Source of the DNA: Methanosarcina barkeri MS
GTDB lineage: Archaea; Halobacteriota; Methanosarcinia; Methanosarcinales; Methanosarcinaceae
Reading direction: 5' to 3'
NCBI RefSeq assembly: GCF_000970025.1
Contig: NZ_CP009528.1
Location: forward strand, 558,001 to 622,000
Length of the DNA stretch: 64,000 nucleotides
Shown: positions 4,212-10,351 of the stretch, one piece after another
How positions within the stretch are numbered: the first letter of the stretch is position 1
How the letters are laid out: each line of letters starts with the position of its first letter
The notes under the pieces: model-generated
What the model was told of the DNA's origin: nothing
What the model saw: only the letters and a program-made list of their open reading frames with translations
The model's database searches: none
Made by a program: the position numbers and the translations under genes

Positions 4212-5615
4212 TTAAGCTATCTGCTTTCTGAAGAGATTGCAGGAATTAATCTTAATATCAAGCAACTTTTCGATGTTCATCTTTGCAGCAATACCTTTTG
4301 CAGCGCCTGGTACTGACGTTATAATACCAATATCGAGTTCTTCACGCAGTTCGCGCATAACGTGCTCGTCTACGAGGTCCATCTTGTCGACCCCGAGTTT
4401 CTTTGCTACGTATTCTTTTGCCTCGCCTATGCGCATATTCTTTGAGAACTCCATTCTTGCAACAAGGTCTCCTGCAGCTCTCATTCCTGTCATACCTGAA
4501 GCCATTATGTGTGCGATCGGCATACCCAGAGGGTCGCCGACCCCGATCTATATGCCGTCTACGCCTGCAATTTCTACCATTGCTTTGCTCGCCCTTGTAA
4601 CTGCATCAATTGGAGGCGTTTCAAGCATCGGTATTCCGCCCACACCCATTCCCATGTCAACGTGACATGGTATTGGAGATGCTTCGACAGCTGCCTTCAT
4701 GAAAGTAACTGCACGGGCAAGGTTCCAGGCTGAGGTCTTGCTGGTATTGGTGTTGCATACTGGTCCGAAAACATTTGCTCCAGCCTTTGCAACAAGAGGA
4801 GCCTGCTGGTGAGGCCAGAGACCTGCAAGGGTTACTCCGTCGTACTGAAGGTTTCCATGCATACCAAGTACGCATTCTCCAGCCATGCCTGCTTCAATGT
4901 ACATATCAGGGAACTCTTTTCTGAGGGCTTCAATCGCATGGAGTGTACCATACATGTCACCGTCGCCTGCTGCACCGGTTGTGTCGAAGTTGACCCCATC
5001 GGCACCGGAGGCAAAGAGTTTCTGCATAACCCAGACAGTGTCTCTTGTCAGGTGTTCTGCAGCATGTTCCATTGATTCCCAGGCTTCCTGAATCTTGAAA
5101 GCCTTCATGAGGTCGCCAGGGTTCTCGAAAGGTCCATCAGGAGTATAATACAATCCCATGTTTGGCATTGCGCCGTAAAACAACGGAATAACCATGTTCT
5201 GCTGGCAGACTTCCATTGCCTGGCACTCGTTTGATACAACAGGTTTGACAGGCTTGAAGCTGTAATCAATGTGCCCGAGTTCCATTGTGTCAGCACCAAA
5301 AGCACGCTCGTGCGTCATGCAGCCAACTAAACGGCTGGAAGGAATACCAACACCGCTGTTGCCCTGGTCACCGTCAAGCCTGATGGTACCGATGTCGTGT
5401 GTTACAGGAATTTCCATACCCTGTTCGACACTAACAGTCTTGCCGGGCATCATGAGGATCTCTGCAAGCTTGTCCATTTCATTGGCGCTCAGGGCCGGAA
5501 TTTCACCGAGATCGGCAGCATCTGCAGTCCCGGCTTCAATTTCAGACACAATTTTTTCTTTGGTAAGGTAGACACGTTTACCGTCTCCCATACGCAAAGC
5601 GTATTCAGTTGCCAT
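4212..5615 (-). CDS. mtbB: Dimethylamine methyltransferase MtbB (pyrrolysine protein)
   Basis: Transfers a methyl group from dimethylamine to the Co(I) corrinoid of MtbC, releasing monomethylamine. Translation runs 355 codons to an in-frame TAG (complement of 4548-4550), then resumes in the same frame with [19 protein letters not shown] and continues to a true stop: 467 residues with pyrrolysine at 356, the length and UAG position known for MtbB. Both halves fit one TIM-barrel methyltransferase, so this is not a frameshift or two genes. GGAGACTAAAA precedes the ATG. It is the last gene of the mtt/mtb cluster. Expression needs pylT/pylS and the Pyl biosynthesis genes, which are not in this window. 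Confidence 0.96.
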
Positions 5616-5671: not shown

Positions 5672-5821
5672 TCAGAATTGGGATACAAAGGTTCTGGCTT
5701 GCCAGAGAGCTATTATCGCCAGAATAAGGATCAAAACCATCCACAGAATCTTTGCTTCCGGTATGAAGGAATTTGCCCAATATGCATTGTAAGCTGCTAA
5801 AGCCGCTGCTGTTTGCGTCAT
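5672..5821 (-). CDS. 49-residue single-span membrane protein in methylamine operon
   Basis: The start MTQTAAALAAYNAYW is chosen because GGAGGATAAAAAT directly precedes it; a longer in-frame start at 5863 would overlap the upstream gene and lacks this site. One transmembrane helix (about residues 22-40, ILWMVLILILAIIALW) and a short C-terminal tail. It lies between a small winged-helix gene and mtbB, all on the minus strand, with strong translation signals. It could be a partner subunit of the permease MttP or a membrane anchor. Function unknown. Confidence 0.75.
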   Translation of the reverse strand: MTQTAAALAAYNAYWANSFIPEAKILWMVLILILAIIALWQARTFVSQF

Positions 5822-5840
5822 ATTTTTATCCTCCATTGAA

Positions 5841-6137
5841 TCAAACATATCTGAAGCAGGCATCAGAGCCTCGAACTCTGCCGAAATCTGTTATCATATA
5901 CTTGTGCAGTAGAAAGCCTTTTTTGTAGATTCCGTTTTCGTCAACTTTCTGCTCCACATCCTTCAGCATTCCTCCAGACGCCAGTTCAATGATGTCAAAG
6001 TTAATGCTGTCTCTCTGGAAATTGCTCCTCATGTCGTACTCTTCCTGGATCTTCGAAACGATTTCATAGTTCCAGTGTTCGTTTCCGTCCAGGAAAAGTT
6101 CCAGGATTCTGAACTTGATAGGACGATTTTTGCTCAC
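5841..6137 (-). CDS. Small winged-helix-like protein in methylamine operon
   Basis: 98 residues starting at a GTG (MSKNRPIKFRILELFLDG). The start is preferred because GAGGTGA lies 5-6 nt upstream; the GTG three codons earlier overlaps that site. The stop of mttP (TAA, 6139-6141) is one base before this start, so the two are translationally coupled. The pattern KFRILELFLDGNEHWNYEIV ... FDIIELASGGML resembles a winged-helix transcription factor with a predicted recognition helix around 30-55. It may regulate the operon or sense the substrate; that is inference. No cysteine cluster or membrane segment. Confidence 0.75.
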   Translation of the reverse strand: MSKNRPIKFRILELFLDGNEHWNYEIVSKIQEEYDMRSNFQRDSINFDIIELASGGMLKDVEQKVDENGIYKKGFLLHKYMITDFGRVRGSDACFRYV

Positions 6138-6138
6138 T

Positions 6139-7185
6139 TTACTCACCTCTCAGAGTTTCAAGTTCACTTGCGTCTTCAGTAAACATAATGAAACTTCCAG
6201 CGATACAGAGAGCACCGCCTATAATAATAGTCCAATCCGGAACATCTCCAAAGAAGAGGAATAAGAAGATGATAGCACAGAGTCCATAGAGGTTTCCAAT
6301 TCCCTGGCCTCTCCCAACTCCTATAAGTGGAAAAGATTTGTACCATGTAACGTAGCAGAAACCAAAGGTGATACCTGCAAAGACCAAGATCAGTATGGTC
6401 AAAGGATCAAATGCCTGCAGTGCAAACGAGTACATCGGAAAGCCCACAAGTGCAAGAACTGGCACAATGATGATCCACCAAATTATGTTCTCACCAAGGA
6501 AGCGAAGAGTCAACCCGGCATCCGGTTCTGCAATATCAAGACCTTTGCCTGCAATTGCACCTTCAATGCCCCAGCCGGCAGCCGCCATCAAACCTCCGAG
6601 ATATCCTATCCAGGGGACGTTACCTGAAGAAAGTTCAGTAAAAAGTCCACCACCGTAAATAGAAATACCTCCCAGAACGATGACTGCAATACCGATTGCC
6701 GCCCTCTTGGAAATCTTTTCTCCATACCAGTAGTAAGCAAGAATTGAACCCACTACAGGGTAAAGAAGGCCTGCAACAGCTGCAAATGATCCCCCGATAA
6801 AGCCCATAGCAATGAAAGAACCTAGAATTGCCATAGGACCACCGAAGATAGAAGCAAGGAAGAACCACTTGGAGCAGGGATGGAATTCCTTAAGAGTCCT
6901 TACGAGTTCTCCGTATTTTCCAAGTACTCCGTTCCAGACCATAAGTGCCAGCATGACAGCCAATGCATTAAAGGCAGTAATCAGTACGGCAGTCACAACA
7001 AGAGATATGCCGTCTCCACTTGTTTTAGCGATAGCACTACTCATTTCATCAAAAGGGTTAAGAACCCAAACAACGGTTCCTGGCAAATACCAGATTCCCC
7101 AGAATATAGCACAGAAAAAGGCCCACATGTACCCTTTACTGATTTTTCTTTTACTTTCCTGTTTTTTTAAAGCTTTCAAATCCAC
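6139..7185 (-). CDS. mttP: Methylamine permease MttP
   Basis: About 348 residues with roughly ten transmembrane helices, resembling the EamA/drug-metabolite transporter fold. It sits between mtbC and mtbB, the position of mttP in Methanosarcina, where it is thought to import tri-/dimethylamine. The start GTG is favoured because GGAGGGAG lies eight bases upstream; the ATG at 7200 overlaps that site and has none of its own. Charged N-terminus KALKKQESKRKISKGYMW precedes the first helix. About 311 bp with a strong hairpin separates it from mtbC, so it may also have its own promoter or processing site. Confidence 0.88.
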   Translation of the reverse strand: MDLKALKKQESKRKISKGYMWAFFCAIFWGIWYLPGTVVWVLNPFDEMSSAIAKTSGDGISLVVTAVLITAFNALAVMLALMVWNGVLGKYGELVRTLKEFHPCSKWFFLASIFGGPMAILGSFIAMGFIGGSFAAVAGLLYPVVGSILAYYWYGEKISKRAAIGIAVIVLGGISIYGGGLFTELSSGNVPWIGYLGGLMAAAGWGIEGAIAGKGLDIAEPDAGLTLRFLGENIIWWIIIVPVLALVGFPMYSFALQAFDPLTILILVFAGITFGFCYVTWYKSFPLIGVGRGQGIGNLYGLCAIIFLFLFFGDVPDWTIIIGGALCIAGSFIMFTEDASELETLRGE

Positions 7186-7449
7186 GAAAACTCCCTCCAT
7201 TTTTCAGAACGCTGTGGAGTTCCCTCAGGACATAATCTCCAGTCCATCTCCACAACCTGAAAGTGCAGCCCAAAAGCTCCTTTTGCGGGTCTCATATCTC
7301 AGGAATATTTTTCAACTTAGGTTCAAACTTCTATTCAACTGTTGTTTTTTAGCAGTTTTTGTAATATTCCCTTGGGCAATACGATTTGCAAGAACTGTTC
7401 TATCTATATACTGAGCTACAGTCTCACAAAAATGCACAGAATAGAGTGT

Positions 7450-7511: not shown

Positions 7512-8165
7512 TCAGACATTCAGGGCTGCTTTTACCTTGGCGACTGCGTCATTAGCGCTTTCACCATAGATATCTGCGCCGATCTTGTCTGCCCAGTCCT
7601 GGGTAACAGGAGCGCCACCGACCATGGTCTTTACCTGGTCGCGAACACCTGCTTCTTTCAGCTGTTCCTCAATCTGGATCTGGTTGACCATCGTGGTTGT
7701 CATAAGTGCGGAGGATGCAACAACCTGGGGTTTGAGTTCTTTTACTTTTTCTACAAAAGTGTTAATTGGGACATCTCTTCCGAGGTCCACTACTTTGAAA
7801 CCTGCAATGTTAAGCATGGAAGCTACAATATCCTTTCCGATGGAGTGGATGTCGCCTTCGATGGTTCCGATAGCAACGGTTCCGAGGCTTTTGGTTTGAG
7901 ACTTGCGCTTTTCCATTTCAGGGGTGATAACTTTTATACCGGAATTCATTGCCTCAGCAGCTGCAAGTACATGTGGCAGGAAAAGTTCGCCCTGGCCGAA
8001 TTTTTCTCCTACTTCTTCCATGCCTGCGGTAAAGCCTTTCTCAATAAGCTCTACGGGGTCAATTCCTGCAGCAAGGGCTTCATTTGCTACTTCTTCTGCA
8101 AGTTCATCGTCAAAATCGGTGATTGCTTCTTTTGCTTTTGCAATGATTTCTTCTTTGTTTGCCAT
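7512..8165 (-). CDS. mtbC: Dimethylamine corrinoid protein MtbC
   Basis: Accepts the methyl group from MtbB on its cobamide and passes it to the methylcobamide:CoM methyltransferase MtbA (not in window). 217 residues: N-terminal helical cap (about 1-90) and B12-binding Rossmann domain with EGDIHSIGKDIV (the D-x-H-x-x-G base-off ligand loop, near residue 105), the SALMTTTM segment and [28 protein letters not shown] precedes the ATG. Only 30 bp separate it from mttB. Assigned to dimethylamine rather than trimethylamine by gene order (mttC-mttB-mtbC) and sequence; it is paralogous to MttC. Confidence 0.93.
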   Translation of the reverse strand: MANKEEIIAKAKEAITDFDDELAEEVANEALAAGIDPVELIEKGFTAGMEEVGEKFGQGELFLPHVLAAAEAMNSGIKVITPEMEKRKSQTKSLGTVAIGTIEGDIHSIGKDIVASMLNIAGFKVVDLGRDVPINTFVEKVKELKPQVVASSALMTTTMVNQIQIEEQLKEAGVRDQVKTMVGGAPVTQDWADKIGADIYGESANDAVAKVKAALNV

Positions 8166-8195: not shown

Positions 8196-9683
8196 TTACA
8201 TGCCTCTGAAGGCTTTGTCAGCCTTGTCCACAATTGCTTGCATGTCCTTGAAAATGTCTGCATCGATTGGGGTTACCTGGTGGTTTTTAAGAACGTCCTC
8301 TACTTTTTCGTGTGCAACTGTTGCAAGGTCTTTTGAGCCTGCTGCAGCCCAGTCTCCAAACATGTGTCTGTCAAGGAGCATTGGGTTGGACGGGTAATCC
8401 ACAAGCTGCCTGGTCTGTTTAAGGGCCAGGAAATTGTTTCCGATGCCTACTTTCTGGATAGATTCGACTGCAAGAGTTTCTTCCGAGACAGGAATTCCCT
8501 GCATGGCTTTCTTAACCATACTGAAGATATCATTGTCAATAACAAGCTGTTCCATTGAGAATGTCATTCCGAGCTCAAGCATTCCAGCTCCGTAGATGGT
8601 GTTGGCACCGGCAAGAGCAGGCAGAAGAGTGGTCATAGTTTTTTCGTGGCCTGCCTGGTCGTCCGGAACCTTGGCATCAGACTAGGAACCTGCCACATAG
8701 GAGGGAAGGCCGTAGAACTGGGCAAGCTTTGCAACTGCAGCACTGATAAGACCGAGTTCAGGAGATCCAACAGGTGCTGTACCTTTCTTGAGGTCGAAGG
8801 TAGTTGTGGAACTTCCATACCAGACTTTAGCTCCAGGTACTGTCAGCTGGGCAAGTACTATTCCTGAAAGAACTTCGGCATTGTGGGTTACAAGAGTGCC
8901 TGCAAGATATACAGGAGAAGAACCACCTGACATTGCCATACTCAGGACATTTACAGGAATTCCAAAGCGGGCACCCTTGATGATGACCTGACAGGCATTT
9001 ACACTGAGCTCAAGTGGGCTGGTAGGGCAGAGCAGCATGGAGAAAATAGGTTTCTTTCTTGCTTCTTCCTCGTCCCCACCGTAATAGGCCTTTACAATGT
9101 CCCGATAGTACTCAACGTTTTCGCCAACAGGGTCAATGTGGTGGAAGTGTTTTGCGGTGTTTGCAAGAGGGGTAAGTGTTTCGTGGACATCCTGTGCACC
9201 CTGACCTGCAATGTCCCTTGCAGAGACTGGCAGTGAGAAATAGTCAATGTTTTCTGCCCAGTCACAGAGTTTTGCGATGTCTGCAATATCTTTTTCGACG
9301 GAGTCGACTGTCACATACTTGCCATCCTGGTATTTGCAGACCTTAACACCGGTACCGAAACAGGTCCAGTGTACTTTACCACCACATTCCTGTACAGTGT
9401 TGAATTTTTTATCACGGCCCCAGAGTACAAATCTGGAGGGAGCGAGCTGAAGAGCTTTTCTTACAAGATATTCAGGGATCTTTACAACGTTTGTCTTTTC
9501 ATTAACTTCGCAGCCATTTTCCTTGAAGATCTGCCTTGCCTCTGGGTCAGAAACCTGAATTCCTGGGTCCATCAGAACTTCCATGGTTGCATAGTGAATT
9601 GCCTTAAGTTCGTCAGTGGTAAAAAGGTTTAATTCTACGCCATTAAGTGCATTAAATCCAGCAACTGCATTATTTTTTGCCAT
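8196..9683 (-). CDS. mttB: Trimethylamine methyltransferase MttB (pyrrolysine protein)
   Basis: Demethylates trimethylamine and methylates the MttC corrinoid. Translation gives 333 residues ending GLPSYVAGS, then an in-frame TAG (complement of 8682-8684). It resumes with [18 protein letters not shown]-like sequence to a TAA: 495 residues with pyrrolysine at 334, exactly as for known MttB. A strong site GGAGGTTATAAAA precedes the ATG. It is 26 bp downstream of mttC and 30 bp upstream of mtbC. A stop at this TAG would remove the last third of the barrel, so readthrough or Pyl insertion is required for function. Confidence 0.96.
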
Positions 9684-9709: not shown

Positions 9710-10351
9710 TTAAGCCAGCAGCTCTTTTGCTTTTGCAACAGCTTCGGTTGCATTCTCAGCATAGCAGTCTGCACCGATTTTGTCAGCCCAGGCCTGGGTT
9801 GCAGGTGCACCGCCTACCATGACTTTTACTTTATCTCTGAGTCCTTCTTCTTTGAGGAGCTCAATTACACTTTTCTGTCCCTGGAGAGTTGTGGTCATAA
9901 GAGCGGAAATTCCAATCATATCAGCATTGACTTCCTTTGCCTTCTCAATAAAATTCCTGATTGGAACATCACGGCCAATGTCATGTACTTCAAAGCCGGC
10001 AGATTGAAGCATTGTGGATACGATTGCCTTTCCAATATCATGAACATCACCTTCTACGGTACCGTTCACAATAACACCGAGCTTTGAGCCGGAAGCCCCT
10101 TCAGGCATAAGATCCTTAAGAGCTGCAACTCCTGCAGTCATCGCATCGGCAGCCATCATCACATGTGGCAGAAACAATTTTCCTCTCTCGAAACGGACAC
10201 CAACCTCATTCATGCCTGCTGCAAGTCCTTTTTCTATTATTTCGGAAGGTTCCAGTTCTCCTTTAGCTTTTTCAACTACAGCGAGTACTGTATCCTTCTT
10301 GCAGGAAATTATAGCATCTGCAAGTTCCTGAAGCAATTCTTCTTTGCTAAT
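9710..10351 (-). CDS. mttC: Trimethylamine corrinoid protein MttC
   Basis: Cobamide-carrying partner of MttB. Corrinoid loop [20 protein letters not shown] and [16 protein letters not shown] are present. The in-frame sequence begins with an AUU codon followed by [13 protein letters not shown]; the strong GGAGG is seven bases upstream of that AUU. The only ATG nearby is in another frame and hits a stop after three codons, and the next in-frame possible start (TTG, 10336) lacks a site. AUU initiation giving 213 residues is therefore the best reading. First gene of the operon. Confidence 0.88.

Follow-up and report, generated by a model that had tools for sequence, protein, structure and literature searches.

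The closest described counterpart of the locus considered here lies in Methanosarcina mazei, whose operon carries in the same place mttP (MM_1691), a gene called hypothetical (MM_1692) and a small protein, sORF_05 (MM_RS18880), which was found by Ribo-seq, is translated, was detected by means of a tag, is membrane-associated, slows growth when overexpressed and is a proposed trimethylamine permease subunit (PMC11456600). The accessible text of that report deals with the small protein only, gives its conservation within Methanosarcinaceae only, and describes no winged-helix subunit, no bacterial modules and no fusions (PMC11456600).

PadR-family regulators are the nearest solved folds to the winged-helix protein of the present locus (WH), which differs from them in being linked, and sometimes fused, to a permease. 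One-helix proteins bound to a large transporter are represented by KdpF and AcrZ: they provide a one-helix partner, as does the 49-aa membrane protein studied here (TM), yet the transporters are unrelated, and in our case a soluble winged-helix protein comes as a third partner. Ten-helix DMT proteins have both their N- and C-termini in the cytosol. TmoP of Methylocella is a reported TMAO permease. For the choline importer LicB we know of no winged-helix or mini-membrane partner. This LicB type of DMT/EamA importer (PDB 7b0k, 7paf) is the best fold match of an MttP-family model and imports a quaternary methylated amine; in the titles of the PDB entries it appears as a single protein, unlike MttP with its two putative partners. 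In M. mazei, AmtB1 is inhibited by GlnK1 with the help of the 61-aa protein sP36 (PMC10714827); GlnK1 is PII-like and sP36 shuttles between cytoplasm and membrane (PMC10714827). As would be the case for MttP, WH and TM, a small soluble protein and a protein of less than 70 aa act there on a small-amine transporter, a likeness of operation only, and no homology to WH or TM is claimed.

The mtt locus of Methanosarcina barkeri MS

The window, i.e. the whole stretch of 64,000 nucleotides analysed (G000:C2:558001-622000), belongs to a genome of 4.57 Mb in two contigs. Reading of the open frames together with profile matches gives the operon order mtbC-mttB-mttC-mttP-WH-TM-mtbB, with all features on the minus strand:

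9710..10336, minus strand: mtbC, corrinoid protein for dimethylamine, first of the operon genes listed (B12-binding domains, 3e-30 and 5.5e-23)
8196..9683, minus strand: mttB, trimethylamine methyltransferase, frame open across one amber codon (ORFs 9683-8682 and 8636-8196, sharing a frame)
7512..8165, minus strand: mttC, corrinoid protein, located upstream within this operon (TIGR02370, 4.7e-97)
6139..7200, minus strand: mttP, DMT/EamA-family trimethylamine permease, 353 aa (Pfam EamA, 2.8e-16)
5841..6137, minus strand: WH, winged-helix protein, 98 aa, GTG start (AF2 model with PadR-like fold)
5830..5834, minus strand: GGAGG Shine-Dalgarno sequence of TM, read from the sequence, 8 nt ahead of the TM ATG
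5672..5821, minus strand: TM, single-span membrane protein, 49 aa, counterpart of M. mazei sORF_05
4212..5615, minus strand: mtbB, dimethylamine methyltransferase carrying an amber (Pyl) codon in frame, closing the operon on its downstream side (Pfam Dimeth_Pyl, 1.6e-266; TIGR02368)

An earlier note on this DNA had placed the two small genes at 5672-6137, with WH beginning one base after the mttP stop and TM preceded by a very strong ribosome site, and the sequence agrees on all three points. The mttP stop codon TAA (6141-6139) is followed by a single base and then by the WH GTG at 6137, with a GAGGTGA motif at 6149-6143; translation might alternatively start from the in-frame GTG at 6146, but a relative (L119) has ATG at the position corresponding to 6137. 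From the WH stop codon (5843-5841) it is 19 nt to the TM start, TM itself runs from an ATG at 5821 to a stop at 5674-5672, and mtbB starts at 5615. The GGAGG of TM is located at 5834-5830, and a purine-rich, Shine-Dalgarno-like stretch was found ahead of TM in 28 out of 28 homologous copies examined. The genome has three copies of mtbB (G000:C2:562221, 1207222, 1247489), one mttP and one WH-TM set; the other mtbB copies are without WH. Elsewhere in the window, downstream of a gene resembling class I lysyl-tRNA synthetase, positions 1161-1445 hold a short tandem repeat that can be read in several frames as IHFCN.SIFA-like units.

Both genes are real. The TM reading frame is under purifying selection, because its dN/dS is about 0.095 (median of 328 pairs) and variation concentrates in the third codon position (entropies 0.29/0.16/0.96 for the three positions); dN/dS and codon periodicity likewise rule out a spurious ORF. 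The protein has the C-terminal motif ALWQARTFV, one Arg of which is invariant in all 29 aligned TM proteins, and the ends of paralogous TM proteins (for example, ALYIGRTF..KI or LYLSRTFM.KV) match the window's ALWQARTFVSQF. Neither TM nor WH has a family in Pfam or NCBIfam; matches to mCpol (E 0.033) and AtpZ (E 0.027) were dropped, being far below the cut-offs. By position, length and order, between an MM_1692-type gene and mtbB, TM matches the sORF_05 family. The idea of a permease accessory subunit is supported: the M. mazei counterpart is membrane-associated, and the same proposal was made for it (PMC11456600). The accompanying statement of the earlier note that neither gene had been described has to be abandoned for TM, which is M. 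mazei sORF_05 (PMC11456600), and appears to hold for WH, of which no description was found in the open-access literature searched; the M. mazei report labels MM_1692, the gene at the WH position, hypothetical.

MttP scores 60.5 bits against Pfam EamA, compared with a cut-off of 28.2. AF2 modelled the permease part of a natural MttP-WH fusion well: its best structural match is the choline importer LicB (17-18% identity), other DMT-fold structures are matched as well, and the N-terminus of the modelled homologue starts with an arginine-rich stretch. The Pfam match and this model place MttP in the DMT/EamA (LicB-like) family, with a predicted ten-helix DMT fold.

The AF2 model of WH (pLDDT 92, pTM 0.84) comprises three helices, a two-stranded wing and a C-terminal helix. 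PadR-type regulators are the nearest folds according to Foldseek (top E 6e-4 to 1e-2, TM-score about 0.5-0.7), and Pfam PadR is weakly touched by three of 38 WH members (best E 8e-4) and gives no match in the remaining 35. The window's WH matches no Pfam family, a PDB sequence search with the 38-member profile returned nothing up to E 1, and no WH relative was detected in viral contigs. WH is mostly acidic, with a pI of 4.3-6.8 in 36/38 members, and its helix 3, the DNA-reading helix in regulators, has a mean net charge of -0.4 and about three aromatic residues, and it ranks with the better conserved parts of the protein when methanogens and actinobacteria are compared. As far as can be judged from sequence, this pattern fits protein-protein contact better than operator reading, although DNA binding is still compatible with it.

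Genomic association of WH and TM with the permease

The earlier note had proposed a survey of conservation beside mttP, and in relatives the association was strongly upheld. Among 112 Methanosarcinaceae genomes, in which WH and TM were each sought and mttP was identified by profile, WH is present in 88 and TM in 88 as well (three matches with E>0.03 being left out); mttP and WH occur together in 88 genomes and WH alone in none. WH lies directly downstream of mttP in 118 of the 126 mttP matches, with a median gap between HMM edges of 14 nt, and the Methanosarcinaceae genomes that were searched contain no WH at a distance from mttP. The eight mttP without WH are accounted for by four second permeases, three orphan-type matches (in two genomes) and one contig-end fragment; the only genome with mttP alone is represented by a short mttP fragment at a contig end. 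The association of WH and TM with mttP is thus near-obligate and ordered.

The four second permeases (L063-L066) follow directly after an mttP-WH-TM set. In these loci (L063-L066, in G100, G040, G063 and G068), two diverged mttP genes flank a WH-TM set, which suggests a paired permease with one common partner set; L065 adds a broken WH with its TM, and this broken copy, located between both permeases, is the single unpaired WH match. An orphan mttP on the Methanohalobium plasmid pMETEV01 (L206:4992-6077) adjoins an IS630 transposase; neither WH nor TM was recognised beside it, and the chromosome carries the full set. In one Methanosarcina genome (G081), a second copy of the mtt operon has a frameshifted WH (L119:4925-5217) next to intact mttP and TM, with another WH intact elsewhere in the genome, and one mttP (L071:4812-5882, G032) has an in-frame TAA near its N-terminus, which may reflect either an internal start or decay.

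WH identity is about 50-94% across Methanosarcinaceae and falls to 24-35% in paralogous clusters. Several genomes contain such diverged methylamine clusters, whose MttP and WH are 32-42% and 24-32% identical, respectively, to those of the window, and each of them keeps the order permease, WH and then a membrane protein of 38-40 aa. Pairwise distances correlate between MttP and WH (r=0.92; maximum 0.16 in 1000 permutations) and between MttP and TM (0.91), partly owing to shared phylogeny. Outside the family, a sample of 393 genomes of the phylum yielded a single holder (G129), which again shows the order mttP-WH-TM. Its mttP (L118:5605-7107) has an in-frame TGA at a position usually occupied by Trp and its WH an internal TAG, to be explained by a pseudogene, a sequencing error or recoding.

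The association extends far beyond methanogens. Scanning the MttP alignment against 84,980 species genomes gave 186 relatives, of which 80 loci were fetched and searched with WH and TM profiles built from Methanosarcinaceae. WH was found in 79/80 (best E per locus 5e-50 to 1.8e-7), and the sole locus without it, L180, ends about 120 bases past the permease match. Both small genes follow the permease in 75 of these 80 loci, whereas in three (L151, L153, L165) they are situated upstream of the fetched permease. Hosts include Pseudomonas, Marinobacter, Vreelandella, Ralstonia, Cupriavidus, Bacillus and Domibacillus, and further Pseudonocardia, Rhodobacteraceae, Thermincola and Desulfobacula. One Thermoplasmata genome (L128), probably of Methanomassiliicoccales type judging by its gene content, has two WH copies, the second located after mtbB-mttB-mttC-mttP and followed by a hydrophobic ORF of 53 aa. 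When 12 genomes from outside the family were searched, the WH profile matched only the mttP-side locus in 11, and in the twelfth it matched two places, each after an mttP. In RefSeq, permease and WH are annotated as 'DMT family transporter' and 'hypothetical protein', respectively. A sample of 289 genomes of the alphaproteobacterial class contained the family only in the starting genome, which shows that the module is rare in that sample.

The neighbouring genes differ in chemistry across these loci, so that the permease is kept while the enzyme varies, with WH and TM staying with the permease. In Pseudomonas and Marinobacter, a flavin monooxygenase of 456 aa ends where the permease starts, and its PDB relatives include trimethylamine monooxygenase 6kbw as well as 5ipy and 2vq7. 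In Paracoccus aminovorans, trimethylamine dehydrogenase (matching 1djn with E 4e-217), ETF and an aminomethyltransferase line up with the permease; the permease of the Thermincola and Thermoplasmata loci adjoins Dimeth_PyL methyltransferases. At some Ralstonia, Cupriavidus, Pseudonocardia and Bacillus loci no methylamine enzyme was found within 3 kb. The presence of neighbouring trimethylamine-degrading enzymes of several kinds points to methylated amines as the predicted substrate of MttP.

In four proteobacterial loci (L145, L150, L157, L162), WH is fused in frame to the C-terminus of MttP, with no stop between the permease and WH, which are joined by a linker of about 20-30 residues; in the L162 genome, 485 codons are open. 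The linkers differ among the four independent assemblies, so that the fusions are not copies of one assembly error, although all four assemblies are metagenomic. Since the termini of ten-helix DMT proteins are cytosolic, fusion to the MttP C-terminus would put WH in the cytosol. In the AF2 model of a natural fusion the WH part stays below pLDDT 50, which makes its placement unreliable. No fusion of TM to a permease was seen. TM has already been reported; the WH subunit, the cross-domain module and the fusions appear to be undescribed in the literature searched, that is, the open-access literature, which omits most subscription journals and in which no description of WH, bacterial modules or fusions was found.

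A proposed three-subunit importer and competing explanations

We consider it probable that mttP, WH and TM function together as one unit, namely a DMT-family importer of methylated amines with three subunits, for which linkage and fusion were computed and complex formation and gating are conjectured. MttP would be its ten-helix DMT-fold permease. WH would be a small soluble subunit at the cytosolic face, adjoining or attached to the MttP C-terminus and using its winged-helix fold for contact with protein rather than DNA. TM, predicted from the positive-inside rule to be oriented N-out/C-in, would add a one-helix subunit, the C-terminal A/G-R-T-F motif of which would face the cytosol and could touch both MttP and WH. 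The most likely role of WH and TM would be to stabilise the permease and to match its flux to cellular conditions, with trimethylamine, dimethylamine and their relatives as the likely cargo. A more specific proposition, which we regard as evenly balanced, is that a winged-helix fold has come to serve a DMT-family transporter as the subunit that gates or regulates it, and that a mini-membrane protein makes up the third subunit.

A winged-helix gene within an operon readily evokes a DNA-binding regulator that is free in the cell and specific to the mtt operon, in which case TM alone would be a permease subunit. Fold and position agree with such a role, which the earlier note had also put forward, yet WH goes with mttP and not with mttB or mtbB (the remaining mtbB copies in the M. 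barkeri genome come without it), and beside mttP it is also found next to FMO or TMA dehydrogenase genes. A regulator of this kind is less likely than a permease subunit, because WH tracks the permease, not the operon, across unrelated catabolic contexts and belongs to the permease polypeptide in four bacterial loci; we consider it very unlikely. Somewhat different is the possibility that WH is a transcription regulator tethered to the membrane or sequestered by the permease, residing on MttP without substrate (permanently where fused) and signalling the state of transport to the operon promoter, comparable to trigger transporters or to membrane regulators of the CadC/ToxR type. The PadR-like fold, the strict tie to a permease, which would suit a transport sensor, and the fusions, which look like membrane-bound one-component regulators, speak in its favour. 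However, WH is mostly acidic, its aromatic-rich helix 3 is about neutral and is one of the better conserved parts between bacteria and archaea, whose promoters are unlikely to have a common operator, and some bacterial loci contain separate regulators (NarL, histidine kinases, PAS proteins), so that this explanation, too, seems unlikely.

WH and TM could also be assembly or quality-control factors, which fold or insert MttP without being lasting subunits. Their small size and the location of their genes right after mttP would be in keeping with this, as would the slower growth of M. mazei upon TM overexpression (PMC11456600). The covalent fusion of WH and permease in some lineages, on the other hand, suggests a lasting association, and a role in assembly only is in our opinion extremely improbable.

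Implications for methylated-amine uptake

Much of the methane formed in marine and wetland sediments is fed by methylated amines, which ocean bacteria use as a nitrogen source, but little is known about how these compounds enter cells. If the permease-WH-TM module is conserved as a unit, it would account for two 'hypothetical' genes at these loci and offer a sequence signature for true methylamine importers within the huge EamA family. MttP expressed alone may fail, as two subunits would be missing, and the role of the small protein reported from M. mazei becomes directly testable. If the three-subunit importer proves true, it would to our knowledge be the first multi-subunit importer of EamA type, and it would represent an ancient cross-domain system for the controlled uptake of methylated amines, present in methanogens as well as in aerobic TMA-oxidising bacteria.
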